A DNA stretch of 6,462 nt from Chloroflexota bacterium (GTDB lineage Bacteria > Chloroflexota > Anaerolineae > J102): assembly GCA_013152695.1 (NCBI GenBank), contig JAADFV010000136.1, forward strand, positions 1 through 6,462, written 5' to 3'. Position numbers and translations under genes: made by a program. The notes under the pieces were generated by a model. It searched no databases, was not told the DNA's origin, and was given only the letters and a program-made list of their open reading frames with translations. This document shows positions 1 through 6,462 of this stretch, one piece after another. Position 1 is the first letter of the stretch. Each line of letters starts with the position of its first letter.

Positions 1-1695
1 CAAGGCACAGGTAAGTACATCGTTGTTTATTCCACACGTACCCTGCTTCAATGTTACCGCTTGAAGGAGAAGCGCTGTTGGCAGGGGATCTCGCACGACA
101 ATGTTTGTTGCCAGGGAGGGCCCGTTATTGACCACGGTAAAGGTGTAAGTCAGAGTGTCTCCCAGGGAGGCAATCACCGGCGAAACCTCCTGAGTGATGG
201 CCAAGTCGGCTTGAGGAATGACCATAGTCTCGAGGGTAGCGGTGTTGTTGTCAGGATTGGGATCACTTCCTGCGAAACTGACGGTGGCAGTATCGACGAG
301 GGTTGCCCGTGCCTCTTCGGGAATCGCGACAATAACGGTGACTGTTTCCTGTTGATTCCAGCCCATCGTTCCGATTTGGCAGGTAATTTGCTCAGCATTG
401 ACGTAGCAAGGGCCTTGCGTGGCCGTGGCCGAAACAAGGGTAACACCGGCGGGCATAGTATTGACCAAAACTACACCATCTGCAGGTGTGGAAGCAAAAT
501 TGGTTATGGTGATGGAGTATTTGAGCTCTTCGCCGGGGATGGCAATGGAGGGGTTGGTAGTGATGGACAGGCCTAAATCAGCGCCTTCGAAGACCGAAAC
601 CGCCAGAACAGAGGCATTATTGTCAGGGTCGGGGTCTGTCGTATCGGCAGTAATTCGGGCTGTATTGGTGAGGACACCGGGCTCTTCCGGAGCACGCACG
701 ACTACCTGGGCTCTTAGCTCCGCCCCGGCCGCCAACTCGCCCAGAGGACAGGTGACCAAGTTGCCGGAATAAGAGCAGGCTCCGCGGCTCGAAGAAGCAC
801 TGAAGAGTGTGACGTTGTCAGGAAGAATGTCGCTGAGGACGGCATTGGGTGCTGCCACAGGCCCGGCATTGCTGGCGATGAGGGTATAGGTCAAGACCTC
901 TCCCACTTCGACTGCTGCCGGCTGGGCACTCTGAGAGACGGAGATATCGGCACTCCAGACGATACTGCTTTCGGCATCAGACACGTTATTGTCGGGGTTG
1001 GGATCGTAGGCTTCGCCTGTCACGGTAGCGACATTAGCGACGGTTGTGTTGACCGTATTGGCAACAGCTTCGATCACGACGGTGCCTTCCGCGTTCACAG
1101 CCAAGGCGCCTAGTTGGCACGTCACTATCCCCTGGCTTTCGCTGCAATCACCCTGGGATGGTGTGATAGCGGTGAGGGTTACGCCATCAGGGAGGGTGTC
1201 TTCTACGACCACGCCGGTGGCAAGGGATGGCCCCAAATTGGCAATGGTAAGCCTGAATGTCAGCGTCTCTCCTGCCAGCACTGATGGCTGTATGGCACTT
1301 TGGCTGATGGCAAGATCGGCATGGCGGACGATGTCATCGGTGAAGACGATGACGTCTTCGTCAGAAGCCAGATCGATTTGCATGGCACTAACTTTTACCC
1401 GATTGGAGATAGGGCCAAGGAGGTCGGGTTCAGGGAAAACGGCCAAGGACAGAGAAACACTGTCTTCGAAAAGGATATCGCCTAAATTGCATTGTACGCC
1501 CACTGCCGTGTTGCTGCAGTCGCCTCCTGTGGGGTTGTTTACGGCCAATAATTCGACACCGACGGGCAGGGTGTCTGAAATCACGACGCTGCCGGCGTCC
1601 TGCGGGCCGTAATTGATCACAGTGAGGGTGTAAGTGAAAGGCACACCGGCGACAAGCAGATCGCTGGAAAGCGCCTGTGTCACATCGAGGTTGAC
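1..1695 (-). repeat. Five tandem DUF11-type repeats within the cytochrome-stalk gene
   Basis: Modules begin at residues 258, 383, 506, 629 and 753 (bases 1695, 1320, 951, 582 and 210), so the period is 123-125 residues. Each has an opening like ADLAIS, then G-[ED]-x-L-x-[YF]-[TSR]-[LIF]-x-[ITV]-x-N, a D-x-LP-x-x-V strand, and a cysteine pair ending in C-x-[LI]-G. Modules 2-4 close with D-P-[ND]-PDNN. The copies have diverged at DNA level, so this is protein-level repetition rather than recent DNA duplication. The last module is truncated by the window edge. Confidence 0.9.
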
Positions 1696-2466
1696 TTGTG
1701 TTCTGGCTGCGATCAGTTCATCCACATTGGGGACGGTCATAAAGCCGTCGCTGGTTTCTTGACGGTTATCGGCACTGTGGGGATGGCAAACAATACAGTT
1801 TTCACCACTAAAATCGAAATGTCCGTCGTGTCCTGCTCCTCCCATGTGTTTCATACGGCCACGAGCCTGGTGGCAGGTCACACAGAGGCGAGTATTGGCA
1901 GGACTGACGCCGTCATCGAAGGAATTTACACCACGGCGAGAAGTAAATGTCACAGGGCCAGCAGGCTCGCCATCGCCCATTATGACGAAATCTTTGATAC
2001 CGAATAGGTTGGTAGAGCCATGCGGATCATGGCAGCTGACACATTTGAGTTGAAAGGCATCAACACTACGGTTATCAAAGTCTACATTGCCATGGGTAGA
2101 GATGGGCGTATCGATGTACGCTCCTGTCCCGTTGTGGCAGGTATTGCAAAATTCGTTGCTTTCAAGAATATCCTGGGTTGTGTTGGGCTGAACATTCATC
2201 CCACCACCTCCACCCATGCCACCGCGGATAAGTAAGTACCGCCTGTTGGCGGTGTGGGCGCGGTGGCATTCGGCACAGGCATCGGTCGTTGCCGAATAAT
2301 TGCCGCGATGAGGCCCCCCTTGTTGCGGAGGGGCCGCCCAGATGGCGGGCGCGAGCAATATAACACTTCCCAGGCAAACGAGAATGAGGATAAAGAATAT
2401 TCTGACCGGGAGGGTCAAATGTGATCTATTGATCGAAACAAAGAGTTTCGGTGTTGGCGTCATCAT
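1..2466 (-). CDS. Multiheme cytochrome-DUF11 repeat surface protein (3' end beyond window)
   Basis: Reading the minus strand from the ATG at 2466 gives 822 codons with no stop before base 1, so the C-terminus is missing. Residues 1-20 are polar, residues 21-44 are a hydrophobic export signal or anchor ending AIWA/A, and residues 51-230 form a heme domain. CXXCH sites lie at C64, C107, C142, C195 and C224, with extra histidines at 53, 71, 125, 149, 207, 213, 216 and 230 able to serve as distal ligands. From residue 258 onward there are five DUF11-type extracellular beta-sandwich repeats, the fifth cut by the window edge. DUF11 repeats usually build surface stalks, so I infer a five-heme head carried on a long extracellular stem. 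The ATG overlaps the upstream cytochrome stop as ATGA, implying coupled translation; the next codon (2463) is also ATG and could be the start. The missing part may hold more repeats and an anchor or sorting signal. Confidence 0.93.
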   Translation of the reverse strand, partial: MMTPTPKLFVSINRSHLTLPVRIFFILILVCLGSVILLAPAIWAAPPQQGGPHRGNYSATTDACAECHRAHTANRRYLLIRGGMGGGGGMNVQPNTTQDILESNEFCNTCHNGTGAYIDTPISTHGNVDFDNRSVDAFQLKCVSCHDPHGSTNLFGIKDFVIMGDGEPAGPVTFTSRRGVNSFDDGVSPANTRLCVTCHQARGRMKHMGGAGHDGHFDFSGENCIVCHPHSADNRQETSDGFMTVPNVDELIAARTQVNLDVTQALSSDLLVAGVPFTYTLTVINYGPQDAGSVVISDTLPVGVELLAVNNPTGGDCSNTAVGVQCNLGDILFEDSVSLSLAVFPEPDLLGPISNRVKVSAMQIDLASDEDVIVFTDDIVRHADLAISQSAIQPSVLAGETLTFRLTIANLGPSLATGVVVEDTLPDGVTLTAITPSQGDCSESQGIVTCQLGALAVNAEGTVVIEAVANTVNTTVANVATVTGEAYDPNPDNNVSDAESSIVWSADISVSQSAQPAAVEVGEVLTYTLIASNAGPVAAPNAVLSDILPDNVTLFSASSSRGACSYSGNLVTCPLGELAAGAELRAQVVVRAPEEPGVLTNTARITADTTDPDPDNNASVLAVSVFEGADLGLSITTNPSIAIPGEELKYSITITNFASTPADGVVLVNTMPAGVTLVSATATQGPCYVNAEQITCQIGTMGWNQQETVTVIVAIPEEARATLVDTATVSFAGSDPNPDNNTATLETMVIPQADLAITQEVSPVIASLGDTLTYTFTVVNNGPSLATNIVVRDPLPTALLLQAVTLKQGTCGINNDVLTCAL

Positions 2467-3470
2467 TTATCGTGGCACAACTGGCATGTCCCCCGATTAT
2501 CCACGCGTAAGAGAGAGCTTCGCTCATTACCACTGGGTGCTGTGGAGCCATCGGGCCAGGATACACTTCCGGCGTAGTTAGCCATCACGGCCGATGTACC
2601 ATGGGCGACGTGACAGGTTAAGCAGGAGACTGGTTTGTGTGCATAGGTGGGATTACCTGTGGCGGGTGGGCCTCCATGTAAATTATGGCAACCACAGCCG
2701 CTGCCCACAGAAATGTGCCGATAAGCAAAGATTGAATCGCCAGAGTCGGTGTGGCCACTGTCAGAGAGCGCCAGATAACGATCGTGACATTGCGAGCACC
2801 AATGAGCAATGTCATTGAAGATTTGGTCGTCGTAGGCCTGACCGAAGTATTTTCCGTTGCCATCATCGATGGTGTAATCTTTGTTGTTTTCGTCAGGTAC
2901 AAGCGTGGTGCCACTGCCCGAACCAATGGGCGTGGCCCGCAAAATACGGTAGGTGGCAGTATTGCCACCACCTTCACCACCATGCGGGTTGTGGCAAGAG
3001 ACGCAGGAGAGGGTGATGCTGCTGCCCGGCCCAGAGCCGATGCTGCCGCTACCCCAAACCGTGCCGCTGCTGTTGTCCCAGATATGCGAAGAGGTGACAG
3101 GGGCAGAAGAGACTGTACCGCTCCAGCTTGTGTCCATACGGACATTGACAAAACCGCCTCCTTTCAATCCCCGGTTGACCACGCCTTCGTCCGGCGACTC
3201 TACGTTGTTGTCTCGTTGCAAGTAAACGCCATCGGTAACATCCGTGTCTGCACCATTGCCGGTGGTTCCATGGCAGGTGAGACAGAGTCCGTGGCTGGTG
3301 CTTGAGACGAGCAAATTCGTGCCCTGGGCGGTGTGGGCACGATGACAGCCGGCACAAGCGTCGGTGGTGGCGGTATAGTTGCCGTGAGGCCCGTTGTCTG
3401 CATAAATGGGTGCAGATATCATTAAGGCCACAATGGCGGCGGCAATGGCAAAAACATACCTAACTTTCAT
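2463..3470 (-). CDS. Secreted multiheme c-type cytochrome, six CXXCH plus one CXCH
   Basis: This 335-residue protein has a clear signal peptide (MKVR, hydrophobic 5-20, probable cleavage after IYA at residue 24). CXXCH heme sites lie at C39, C63, C156, C225, C283 and C329, the last ending the protein as CQLCHDK. A seventh site at 259-262 reads C-G-C-H, one residue short of canonical. Doubled motifs (CHRAH, CHNPH, CHVAH) and histidines at 29, 60, 129, 223, 240, 252, 265 and 278 offer ample bis-histidine ligation. Residues 29-67 match the upstream cytochrome closely, including identical spacing of the first two hemes, so the two are paralogues. Gly/Ser-rich stretches (136-152, 181-188) look like flexible surface loops. 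Likely role: periplasmic or extracellular electron transfer. The start is supported by AGAGGGGG six bases upstream; the stop overlaps the next gene. Confidence 0.95.
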   Translation of the reverse strand: MKVRYVFAIAAAIVALMISAPIYADNGPHGNYTATTDACAGCHRAHTAQGTNLLVSSTSHGLCLTCHGTTGNGADTDVTDGVYLQRDNNVESPDEGVVNRGLKGGGFVNVRMDTSWSGTVSSAPVTSSHIWDNSSGTVWGSGSIGSGPGSSITLSCVSCHNPHGGEGGGNTATYRILRATPIGSGSGTTLVPDENNKDYTIDDGNGKYFGQAYDDQIFNDIAHWCSQCHDRYLALSDSGHTDSGDSIFAYRHISVGSGCGCHNLHGGPPATGNPTYAHKPVSCLTCHVAHGTSAVMANYAGSVSWPDGSTAPSGNERSSLLRVDNRGTCQLCHDK

Positions 3471-3564: not shown

Positions 3565-4449
3565 CTACTTCTTGTGGCAAGCCTGACACACGCCACGGTT
3601 GTCGGCGCGTAACAGGGCGCTGTCGCCGGCAGGACCGGCACCGGCAGCGTAGCCAGTCATTGCGACCGAAGTACCGTGCGGTAAGTGGCAGGTCTGGCAG
3701 ACGAGATAGTTATCACTTGTGCCCGCCAAAGGCACCGTAACGGTGTCACCGTTAGTGTCGGTGAAGGAGGGCGTGTAACTGGTCGTCTGGTCTACAGGGT
3801 GAGTGAAGGTGGGATCGCTGGGATAGTTGGCTGCATGCTGGTAAGGATCGTGGCAGGCACCACAGACATTACTCTGATTGCTGGCCCAATTCTCAGTCCC
3901 ATAGTCCTTGGCTGCACCTTCATCACTTTGACTAACGGTAATGGGCGATACGCCATTGATGTCGGTCTTGATGAGACGGTAGTTGGTGGAACCGTGGGGG
4001 TCGTGGCAGGAGGCGCAATCGAGGGCATCGATAGTGCCAGTCACACCACGCAGGCCGCCAGCACCCCAGGCGCCAGTTTCGGTACCCGTGGGATCGTGGC
4101 TAGAGGTGACAGCAGCACCCTTGTAGTTGACAAAACCACCGCCGAGAAGGTTAGCGTTATTGGTTGTGCTTGTACCTTCGTCGCCACCTCTGCCGGAAAC
4201 GAATAGACCGTCTTCGACGTTGGTGTTGGCGCCGGTACCAGAAGTGCCATGGCAGGAAACACACAGGTCATATGTGCTGCTGGCCATGAGTAGCTTCCCA
4301 CCGGAAGCTGTGTGAGCACGGTGACAGCCGGCGCAAGCGTCGGTGGTGGCTGTGTAGTTACCGTGTGGACCGCCATTGGCTGAAGCTACATTTGCTACAA
4401 TGAGCAGCATAGCGACAACCACTAGCGATACTAAGAGTAGTTTTTTCAT
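3565..4449 (-). CDS. Secreted hexaheme c-type cytochrome, doubled-CXXCH family
   Basis: This 294-residue exported protein has a signal peptide at 1-24 (MKK, hydrophobic 4-19, cleavage after ASA). Six canonical CXXCH sites start at C39, C63, C145, C196, C251 and C288; the last is almost at the C-terminus (CQACHKK). CHRAH, CHDPH and CHLPH are doubled motifs in which the second histidine often ligates a neighbouring heme. Non-CXXCH histidines at 29, 46, 118, 152, 205, 217 and 258 are enough for six bis-histidine hemes. Size and heme number are in the range of filament-forming extracellular cytochromes such as Geobacter OmcS, but I see no sequence match that proves this relationship. It is the first cytochrome of the set, with its own 200-base leader and a good ribosome binding site (AAAGGAGAG), so it is probably the most strongly expressed of the three. 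Confidence 0.95.
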   Translation of the reverse strand: MKKLLLVSLVVVAMLLIVANVASANGGPHGNYTATTDACAGCHRAHTASGGKLLMASSTYDLCVSCHGTSGTGANTNVEDGLFVSGRGGDEGTSTTNNANLLGGGFVNYKGAAVTSSHDPTGTETGAWGAGGLRGVTGTIDALDCASCHDPHGSTNYRLIKTDINGVSPITVSQSDEGAAKDYGTENWASNQSNVCGACHDPYQHAANYPSDPTFTHPVDQTTSYTPSFTDTNGDTVTVPLAGTSDNYLVCQTCHLPHGTSVAMTGYAAGAGPAGDSALLRADNRGVCQACHKK

Positions 4450-4649: not shown

Positions 4650-5840
4650 TTAATATGACCAGATCTGGATGCGGTTGTTTTCTCGATCGGCTACATAAAG
4701 GCGCCCACTGACTGATACCGCGATATCATTCGGGTAGTTGAACTGAGCACTTAGGTTGCCCATGGAGCCGAAGGAGAAGAGGAAACTGGGTTCGGGGCCC
4801 GAGAAGTCGTAAATTTTGACATCTTGGCCGACCGCATCCACAACGTGCAGGCGATCCCGGTTGTCGATGGCCATGCCGCGCGGTAAACTAAGCGCACCAT
4901 CGCCGCTTCCGGCACCGAAGTGAAAAAGGAAGCCGCCTTGGTCATTCCAGACCGAGAGACGCCCATTGTTGCCATCAGAAACGATCATTCTGCCCTGAGA
5001 ATCTGCTACGGCTGCATTGGGGAAGAGGAATTGCCCGTTTCCCTGGCCGGAGATTCCGAATTGGAAGGCAGAGAGATCGAAGTTCAGCCAGTCGGGACTC
5101 ATGATCACGCTGGCAGGGACGACCATGACCGAGTGGCGACCTTCGGTCACGTCGGTCAGGATCATTTGATCCTTGGTGTCGAAACGGATGCCGAGAGGTG
5201 CCCAACTGGCATAGTCGGGGCGGGGCAATGTCTGTGCATTGCCGTCGGCATCTTGATAAGTGACTTCATCGCTGAAGATGTTGTAAGAATATGAGCCGAG
5301 ACTTGGTGCTGTCCCCGTATGTTTGGAGACATATTCACTGAGGGTGAGGGTGGGGCTGAGAATGGTATCGAGATAACCGCCATCTCTATTGAAAACAATG
5401 ATGGCGTGTTGTAATCGGTCTGTGACATATACGCGACCACGTGAGTCGGTAGCGATGTACACGGGGGAGCGTTCGCCCGGTTTGACACCAGGCAACGAGA
5501 AAGAGCCGAGGAGATTGCCGTCGGTATCGAACATTTTGATCAACCGTTCTCCCCGTGATTCTGTGACGTAAAACCGATCTCCATCTGGAGAAACGGCAAC
5601 GCCGATGGGACCATCTACTTCATAAATAGAGAACATGTAGTGGGGGGGATAGTTGACTTCTACGGGAACGGGTAGGAGTTCGGGTAGGGGCTCTGGTTGA
5701 TTCAAATAGGAGGCAAAAATGAAGCTGACGAAGACGAGAACAAGCAAAAGTGCAAAGAGGATCGCTAACAGGAGTTTTCGTCTGCGTTTTTCTTCTTTTC
5801 GGGGTTGGGGCTTCGGTGGAGGGTTCAATGTGGCACTCAT
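4650..5840 (-). CDS. Membrane-anchored NHL-repeat beta-propeller protein
   Basis: A 396-residue protein with a Pro- and Lys/Arg-rich N-terminus (residues 1-22), one transmembrane segment (about 23-46), a short Pro-rich linker (48-66) and then a propeller to the C-terminus. The positive N-terminus predicts the propeller faces outward. Blades resembling NHL repeats, with the pattern P-x-x-[IV]-A-[VTI]-[SD]-x-x-[GD]-R-[LV]-Y-V-[TA]-[DE], are visible near 77-116, 125-160, 214-243, 274-308, 319-355 and 369-396, about six in all. Residues 160-212 are an acidic, Tyr/Ser-rich insertion that breaks the repeat rhythm. NHL propellers usually bind proteins or other ligands; here a role in docking or assembling surface cytochromes is inferred from neighbourhood only. 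The start overlaps the TPR gene stop by ATGA. An enzyme-like propeller or a cleavable signal instead of an anchor cannot be excluded. Confidence 0.93.
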   Translation of the reverse strand: MSATLNPPPKPQPRKEEKRRRKLLLAILFALLLVLVFVSFIFASYLNQPEPLPELLPVPVEVNYPPHYMFSIYEVDGPIGVAVSPDGDRFYVTESRGERLIKMFDTDGNLLGSFSLPGVKPGERSPVYIATDSRGRVYVTDRLQHAIIVFNRDGGYLDTILSPTLTLSEYVSKHTGTAPSLGSYSYNIFSDEVTYQDADGNAQTLPRPDYASWAPLGIRFDTKDQMILTDVTEGRHSVMVVPASVIMSPDWLNFDLSAFQFGISGQGNGQFLFPNAAVADSQGRMIVSDGNNGRLSVWNDQGGFLFHFGAGSGDGALSLPRGMAIDNRDRLHVVDAVGQDVKIYDFSGPEPSFLFSFGSMGNLSAQFNYPNDIAVSVSGRLYVADRENNRIQIWSY

Positions 5841-6462
5841 TGCGGTTTTTCCTGTGATTTCAAAGCAGATAAACTGGCTTCTACTCGACCGAGCGCTTGT
5901 TGGGAAGCAAAATCATGGGGATCAGAAGCTACTGCTTGCTGCAGAATTTCTTTGGCGGCGTTGAGATCACCTATTTTTTCATAGGTCAAGCCCAAGCCAA
6001 GCAGGGCGGGGGTGAACTCAGGCAAGGTCTGTACAGCATTGAGGAGGTGAGTCTTTGCCAACTCGAAGTCTTTCAAGCCAAAGGCCTGCATGCCTTGGGC
6101 GTACTCGACATAACCCGGCATGTCCAGGGCGGTGTAGCATTCGATCATTCCCTGGTAAGCTTCGGTAAAGTCGGGTACAAGGCGAACCGCTTTGTGGTAA
6201 TAGGTCAGGGCCGTTTCGTACTCGCCGAGAGACTGTTGTGCTTTGGCTAATTGGTAAAGGGCATCGGCGTCGGTGGGGACAATTTCTAAGGCAGACTCTA
6301 GAGGAGGAATCGCCTTTTCGCTTTCTCCCAGGTTCATGTAGCTTTCGCCGACAAAGTAATAGGCTGTCTGCAGAATCAAATCTGCTTTGGCCGTAGGGCT
6401 GTCCTTGCGCATATCGATGAATTTTTCGAGGAGGGGAATAGCCTCAGAGGGTTGTGACATGC
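5837..6462 (-). CDS. TPR-repeat protein (5' end probably beyond window)
   Basis: At least 207 residues made almost entirely of tetratricopeptide helices. Clear TPR units lie near residues 34-63, 68-97, 118-149 and 152-183, with consensus features such as LG-[ED]-x-[ED]-x-A and A-[VL]-x-[LI]-[VP]-P or DP at unit ends. The tail from 184 is a polar helix ending in SQEKPQ. The first ATG in the window, at 6460, is only two bases from the edge, and residues 4-23 look like the second helix of a TPR unit, so the true start is probably upstream and any signal or anchor is unseen. TPR proteins scaffold complexes; several act in c-type cytochrome maturation (CcmI/NrfG type), which would suit the neighbours, but nothing here identifies that family. 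The TGA overlaps the NHL start codon, implying coupled expression. Confidence 0.9.
   Translation of the reverse strand, partial: MSQPSEAIPLLEKFIDMRKDSPTAKADLILQTAYYFVGESYMNLGESEKAIPPLESALEIVPTDADALYQLAKAQQSLGEYETALTYYHKAVRLVPDFTEAYQGMIECYTALDMPGYVEYAQGMQAFGLKDFELAKTHLLNAVQTLPEFTPALLGLGLTYEKIGDLNAAKEILQQAVASDPHDFASQQALGRVEASLSALKSQEKPQ

Follow-up and report, generated by a model that had tools for sequence, protein, structure and literature searches.

A pentaheme cytochrome head on a DUF11 stalk in uncultured Chloroflexota, a probable outer component of an electron-export pathway

What role can be filled by a protein that carries a multiheme cytochrome and a row of DUF11 repeats on a single chain? 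The question is raised by a gene, here called head-DUF11, in a 6,462-nucleotide stretch of Chloroflexota DNA (the window; GenBank assembly GCA_013152695.1, contig JAADFV010000136.1). Its open reading frame (ORF) runs on the minus strand from an ATG at position 2466 to position 1 and encodes 822 amino acids without a stop. The frame is open at the window edge and lacks only the remainder of DUF11 module 5 and whatever follows. Together with its relatives, it establishes that some uncultured Chloroflexota encode a pentaheme head, predicted to be exported, followed by five Ig-like DUF11 modules and a proline/threonine (Pro/Thr)-rich tail. This protein is probably the outer part of an electron-export pathway.

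A first-pass annotation had described an export signal, five CXXCH sites within residues 64-228 and DUF11 repeats from there on. ORF, hydropathy and Pfam analyses confirmed all three, with DUF11 starting at residue 258 and still running at the window edge. The hydrophobic N-terminus (Kyte-Doolittle maximum 2.86 from residue 23) is followed by IWA-APPQQ, and a glutamine shortly past the putative cleavage site is invariant in the 17 rows of alignment A1, which holds the window protein and 16 relatives. The signal peptide is likely cleavable, after Ala44 or Ala45 as judged by eye. Pfam matched DUF11 (PF01345) in five stretches (329.9 bits against a gathering threshold of 24.6, E 6.2e-100) and Paired_CXXCH_1 (PF09699) at 38.5 bits against 20.6 (E 9.4e-10); the match of the head to PF22113 (MtrC/MtrF-like) was at domain level only (36.9 versus 30 bits). 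Each DUF11 module contains one cysteine pair with a spacing of nine residues. With the exception of Cys31, which lies in the signal region, all other cysteines belong to heme sites or to these pairs, so a single disulfide in each module is likely.

The head was searched against about 5.8 billion proteins (E <= 0.001; 946 candidates of 0.55-1.75 times the query length). Its 46 homologues comprised the window's own entry (P0001), 16 proteins with DUF11 (P0002-P0017) and 29 without, according to precomputed Pfam domains. These 16 relatives share 32-56% identity with the window protein; the five CXXCH motifs and the junction to DUF11 are kept in 17/17 rows of A1, and the architecture is therefore not a chance one. 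Genome loci (L numbers) and database proteins (P numbers) overlap in part, P0002 for example being L069; L001, L002, L003 and P0002 are all from Chloroflexota. Locus L001 belongs to genome G001 (an Anaerolineales bacterium). In the class of that genome, the head matched at 1e-12 in at least 25 of 396 genomes, and head plus DUF11 was present in at least seven: G001, G002, G187, G439, G505, G627 and G618, the last with its head divided between two contigs. At most seven candidates were scored per genome, making these counts lower bounds. In a phylum sample of 400 genomes (at most two candidates scored per genome, again giving lower bounds), at least 30 matched the full alignment at 1e-50; among the candidates scored, head and stalk occurred together only in G001, the centre of the sample, and G187, the remainder having DUF11 only.

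A frameshift or misassembly fusing two genes, which the first-pass annotation had named as the refuting case, might be suspected in draft metagenome sequence, and one locus (L072) does contain a probable false join, though within its tail repeat. The identical junction recurs in the 16 other proteins and in seven genomes, partly the same genes, and the DUF11 heads form one clade; we therefore treat this case as excluded, the chance of an artefact being negligible. The array itself is real, and was overestimated when called long: it has five modules, as in most relatives, in a protein of about 1000 amino acids overall. Fourteen of the 16 relatives measure 944-1046 amino acids, and P0002, P0007 and P0014 have five DUF11 stretches each. 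P0013 (467 amino acids) has one and P0016 (628 amino acids) two, so either stalk length is variable or repeats were dropped in assembly. No relative approaches the thousands of residues and tens of modules of GhlA, the DUF11 protein of Litorilinea aerophila, described as having 49 modules in 6,596 amino acids and building a filament about 180 nm long (PMC13319060).

Head-DUF11 is the last of five genes that share one direction in the window, after those for a TPR protein (cut), an NHL protein and two cytochromes, MHC-A and MHC-B (Table 1). This order is kept in L001, L002, L069, L070 (where MHC-A occurs twice) and L071; the sequences of L072 and L073 begin inside the row. MHC-B counterparts were found at the same position in L001, L002 and L069-L072. 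By eye, L001, L002 and L010 share the MHC-B motif CGCH, which is one residue short of CXXCH. In MHC-A, six heme histidines and six other histidines are invariant across 41 rows. Further genes lie upstream of this row in L070 and L003, and in L002, where the contig start truncates them. They encode a multiheme protein with a C-terminal hydrophobic stretch (by eye; 10 CXXCH in L070 and L003), a b561/formate-dehydrogenase-gamma-type cytochrome b and a NapC/NrfH-like multiheme protein with 8 CXXCH. The full slot order is thus membrane-tethered multiheme protein, cytochrome b, NapC-like protein, TPR, NHL, MHC-A, MHC-B and terminal cytochrome, the first three slots being variable. We infer that the upstream genes also occur in the window's own genome, beyond the window. 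As an operon marker, the NHL gene matched at 1e-70 in at least 20 of the 396 class genomes (at most four candidates scored per genome; a lower bound), including six of the seven head-DUF11 genomes but not G505. A HAMP/HisKA_3 sensor kinase is encoded upstream in L001 (519-2393), L069 (3634-5469), L070 (13906-15777) and L071 (4223-6037) and is a possible regulator of the operon.

The last slot of this operon is not always filled by a DUF11 protein. In L077 and L078 it holds a 16-heme cytochrome with a Pro/Thr tail after MHC-A; the same arrangement stands at the contig end in L075, and L076 has a 16-heme cytochrome without the tail after two larger MHC-B-like proteins. Database kin of these cytochromes (P0018-P0020, P0026 and P0027) all have the Pro/Thr-rich tail. 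Hemes 1-5 of the 16-heme proteins align with the window head, and eleven more hemes replace the five DUF11 modules. Likeness thus extends from the homologous head to the setting, L076-L078 lying in the same kind of operon and L075 following MHC-A. At the sequence level, then, an Ig-like stalk and eleven further hemes alternate behind the same head, and the window protein's head is most readily understood as one form taken by a terminal cytochrome with 16 hemes elsewhere.

A tree of 37 heads placed 19 DUF11 heads on one side of a single branch (support 100/99; 100% of 200 bootstrap trees), and the DUF11 version is one clade in this sequence tree. The 19 include near-duplicates, and the root is a midpoint only, so the ancestral state is not given. 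The spacing between hemes 1 and 2 also differs, at 38-58 in DUF11 heads against 23-25 in P0018-P0030 and L075-L077. This stretch (window 2149-2262) is glycine-rich in most DUF11 heads, not in P0008-P0010. Twelve histidines are invariant in 37/37 heads, five of them within CXXCH and the others at residues 53, 71, 125, 149, 207, 213 and 230. The seven outside CXXCH suffice for five bis-histidine hemes, and the head would therefore serve electron transfer rather than catalysis. In the tree, L074p sits on a long branch, and its first spacing is odd. In L074 (8877-16328, G635:C40), a 2483-amino-acid ORF with 47 CXXCH is matched five times by the head model, so that giant cytochromes appear to use the pentaheme head as a repeating unit. 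Elsewhere, P0037 carries a subtilase domain and a C-terminal stretch with five CXXCH; the product of L003 14325-19340, downstream of an operon of this kind, resembles it by eye.

Table 1. Coordinates of the features in the window.
Feature	Position	Strand	Residues	Evidence and remarks
Signal peptide region	2329..2466	(-)	1-46	Hydropathy, sequence, invariant Gln
Pentaheme head	1732..2322	(-)	49-245	Five CXXCH; Pfam; 12 His invariant in 37/37 heads
Heme site 1 CAECH	2263..2277	(-)	64-68	C, C, H invariant in A1
Heme site 2 CNTCH	2134..2148	(-)	107-111	Sequence, alignment A1
Heme site 3 CVSCH	2029..2043	(-)	142-146	Sequence, alignment A1
Heme site 4 CVTCH	1870..1884	(-)	195-199	Sequence, alignment A1
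Heme site 5 CIVCH	1783..1797	(-)	224-228	Sequence, alignment A1
DUF11 module 1	1321..1695	(-)	258-382	Pfam; Cys pair 317/326
DUF11 module 2	952..1320	(-)	383-505	Pfam; Cys pair 441/450; model
DUF11 module 3	583..951	(-)	506-628	Pfam; Cys pair 564/573; model
DUF11 module 4	211..582	(-)	629-752	Pfam; Cys pair 687/696; model
DUF11 module 5 (cut by window edge)	1..210	(-)	753-822	Pfam; Cys pair 811/820; in relatives, Pro/Thr-rich tail next
MHC-B	2463..3470	(-)		Predicted exported cytochrome; six CXXCH and one CGCH; overlaps head-DUF11 gene by 4 bases
MHC-A	3565..4449	(-)		Predicted exported hexaheme cytochrome; 6 CXXCH
NHL beta-propeller protein	4650..5840	(-)		PF01436, E 1.3e-24; N-terminal hydrophobic stretch (by eye)
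TPR protein	5837..6460	(-)		5' end outside window; overlaps NHL gene by 4 bases

How the protein is held was approached through the C-termini of its relatives. A Pro/Thr-rich C-terminal stretch of 67-170 residues (42-76% proline plus threonine) is present in 16/16 relatives and also in 6/13 of rows P0018-P0030; some database rows may be truncated where their contigs stop. LPXTG was found near the C-terminus in 0/19 rows (window protein and relatives, the window row being cut). The highest hydropathies in the last 120 residues were 1.71 (P0002) and 1.65 (P0008, within a DUF11 strand), both borderline. Four loci have stops inside their contigs (L001, L069, L071 and L073), placed within the Pro/Thr-rich tail or shortly beyond it, and hydropathy in three forward frames gave no convincing C-terminal membrane helix in any of them. 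In L001 the stop comes immediately past the tail, and an opposite-strand ORF ends 7 bases further. The tail of L071 (read as L010) appears to slip out of frame, with no helix; L069 ends in a short hydrophobic stretch with arginines, not seen in other DUF11 rows. At E 0.01 the window protein matched 14 Pfam families, none of them an S-layer domain, and none was among the Pfam families of L001, L072, P0002, P0007 and P0014, which reach past the window edge. By these sequence criteria a common C-terminal anchor is not present in the head-DUF11 family. The sorting, S-layer and transmembrane segments on which the first-pass annotation would have hung a C-terminally anchored protein were thus sought in the relatives and not found; of its redox surface protein, the anchor is unsupported and the redox part fits an operon that resembles an electron-export system. 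A head forming the distal tip, as that annotation proposed for a C-terminally anchored chain, is no more than a possibility.

Loci with heme-less DUF11 matches served as a control. Of 30 such loci, 12 had reading frames still open at the 3' end and L022 was excluded (a 38-amino-acid stretch only), leaving 17 usable. Eight of these end in a YLPLV-like motif and three in a membrane helix. Proline plus threonine made up 37-48% of the last 60 residues in L069, L071 and L073, and no control exceeded 30%. The YLPLV-like ends belong to L007, L011, L014, L016, L017, L019, L031 and L034, and the motif was seen also in P0033 and L074. As a frequent end of secreted Chloroflexota proteins, it might be a C-terminal sorting signal. 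One further candidate end was set aside: in L072 (3975-4534, G505:C335) the head-DUF11 frame continues into a Cu-oxidase_2 (multicopper-oxidase) piece, a probable false join, as its 97% DNA identity with L070 stops within the Pro/Thr repeat.

An AlphaFold model of the 822-residue window protein gave confident, beta-rich DUF11 modules, scoring 77-96 per ten-residue block from residue 261. Foldseek matched the rod model to chains of Ig-like repeats (integrin alpha, PrgB). Among the 50 matches listed, whole-chain template modelling scores (TM-scores) to the query were low, at 0.12-0.24, so these matches were read as 'Ig-like repeat' only.

Taking these results together, we hold with a probability of roughly 0.6 that the head-DUF11 protein acts as terminal cytochrome in a conserved operon for electron export in Chloroflexota, held outside by its stalk and tail. 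In the proposed scheme, quinol would be oxidised in the cytoplasmic membrane by the NapC-like octaheme protein and/or by cytochrome b with the membrane-tethered decaheme protein. MHC-A and MHC-B would carry the electrons across the layers of the wall, on a scaffold formed by the TPR and NHL proteins, both membrane-held. The pentaheme head would then accept them and pass them on, either to additional cytochromes or to an acceptor outside the cell. Heme sites are lacking in the DUF11 part, which should therefore not carry electrons from one end to the other; it would act as a holder or heme-free spacer rod of roughly 18 nm, scaled at about 3.7 nm per module from the 49 modules in the 180-nm filament of GhlA. 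The Pro/Thr-rich tail would hold the protein in the envelope or matrix. Export, heme loading and electron flow, the surface location, the tail's binding partner and the end of the protein that lies outermost are what we infer from the gene sequences. Because the envelope of L. aerophila is described as layered, with a lattice-like outer protein layer, in a phylum without canonical outer-membrane markers (PMC13319060), a cytochrome lodged in such layers is plausible by analogy. Three DUF11 chains are reported to associate in the surface grappling-hook filament of that organism (PMC13319060). Should the stalks here bundle side by side, they would make a short fibre crowned with hemes, and the heme-free bundle would determine how far a redox cluster extends; we consider this extension of the scheme quite unlikely.

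Several observations weigh against this reading. Neither end of the protein has a recognisable anchor, and the protein might therefore simply be released. All the genomes are drafts, and the tails lie within repeats able to break assemblies. The last slot varies beyond the two versions described: it holds a 1734-amino-acid protein with an internal head motif in L079, a 292-amino-acid five-heme head without a stalk in L080, proteins with 12 and 47 CXXCH in L074, and in L003 a third small cytochrome followed by a protease-like multiheme protein. The quinol-oxidising part varies as well; L001 has no NapC-like gene in place, and L069 and L071 have only that gene, with neither cytochrome b nor the membrane-tethered multiheme protein in the stretch covered. 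Two of the seven spare invariant histidines are unexplained for five hemes. The head was modelled poorly (predicted local distance difference test score, pLDDT, mostly < 50), as might be expected when a cytochrome is modelled without its hemes, and the model was used for DUF11 only; that of MHC-A (41 rows; mean pLDDT 45) was not used. A nanowire formed by MHC-A and MHC-B was also considered, but these models of the head and MHC-A are too poor to show a heme chain running on between the subunits of a filament. PDB sequence searches with MHC-A and the head returned no convincing relative. The best MHC-A matches, alphavirus E1 chains (E 0.00029 and weaker), were taken as cysteine-driven chance matches; NrfB came next at E 0.038, and the head gave no match below E 0.2.

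The absence of an anchor at both ends would also suit a protein that is released after signal cleavage and becomes matrix-bound, its tail (perhaps glycosylated) binding extracellular polymer and its hemes relaying electrons between cells or in flocs. The tail it shares with part of the 16-heme cytochromes speaks for this, as do the 17 heme-less controls, of which eight end in the YLPLV-like motif and three in a membrane helix and none is as Pro/Thr-rich. It leaves the linkage to the TPR and NHL genes, whose products appear membrane-held by eye, unexplained, and we regard it as doubtful. Missing C-terminal anchors could also mean that the N-terminal segment stays uncleaved, placing the hemes at the cytoplasmic membrane as an early acceptor with the rod and tail pointing outward, the rod being adhesive or wall-crossing; this would reverse the orientation drawn in the first-pass annotation. 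The strong N-terminal hydrophobicity (2.86 in the window protein) would agree, and GhlA is described as a DUF11 rod with a predicted N-terminal membrane stretch and no signal peptide (PMC13319060). An Ala-type cleavage site is nevertheless visible by eye past the hydrophobic stretch, near the glutamine invariant in 17 rows, and this orientation seems unlikely to us.

The grappling-hook role of the DUF11 rod in L. aerophila (PMC13319060) and the resemblance of the rod model to Ig-like repeat chains, at low whole-chain TM-scores, might instead point to a short adhesin, shaped like a hook or fibre, in which the heme head has a part in assembly or sensing and not in respiration. Such a function sits poorly with an operon made of electron-transfer genes and with a head that has kept every histidine and whose slot is elsewhere occupied by a 16-heme protein; it is very unlikely. 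A terminal cytochrome held outside by stalk and tail thus remains our preferred reading.

Judged by domain make-up, two sets of upstream genes, cytochrome b together with the multiheme protein and the NapC-like gene, may be likened to CbcL and ImcH and would presumably serve the same role, with the difference that the components here are separate genes. CbcL and ImcH are described as Geobacter quinol oxidases (PMC9012536). The same source describes giant multiheme cytochromes MHC-A and MHC-B of anaerobic methanotrophic (ANME) archaea fused to S-layer domains (PMC9012536). The likeness to these is one of architecture, a cytochrome joined to a surface-structure domain in a cell that has a proteinaceous outer layer and lacks a Gram-negative outer membrane; the window family instead has DUF11 and a tail, with no S-layer domain found and no convincing helix. 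MtrC-type decahemes differ in having ten hemes, against five CXXCH here. GhlA shares an exposed DUF11 rod in a member of the Chloroflexota, but its main text does not use the word cytochrome (PMC13319060), whereas the window protein couples five modules to a heme head. Within the phylum, electron exchange with electrodes and multiheme cytochromes are reported for Ardenticatena maritima (PMC5808234). In the account given for Anaerolineales, large multiheme cytochromes are present and no porin-cytochrome complex was identified (PMC7399161); by description we liken these cytochromes to the 16-heme proteins. NHL genes are drawn adjoining cytochrome genes in Desulfovibrio ferrophilus (PMC9769857), and a literature search linking extracellular cytochrome nanowires with NHL found none. 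No published heme-DUF11 fusion was found in a thin literature check covering few subscription papers.

Electron export in bacteria without a Gram-negative outer membrane is little known. Here the same operon slot is filled either by sixteen hemes or by five hemes and a protein rod. Through this natural swap it can be asked whether additional hemes or mere reach spans the distance across the envelope, and which of the cytochromes contacts the outside world. If the stalks do bundle, a redox cluster would extend across the layers of the envelope or as far as an adjacent cell, and the wire-like 16-heme protein and the stalk-borne head would be interchangeable ways across the same gap.

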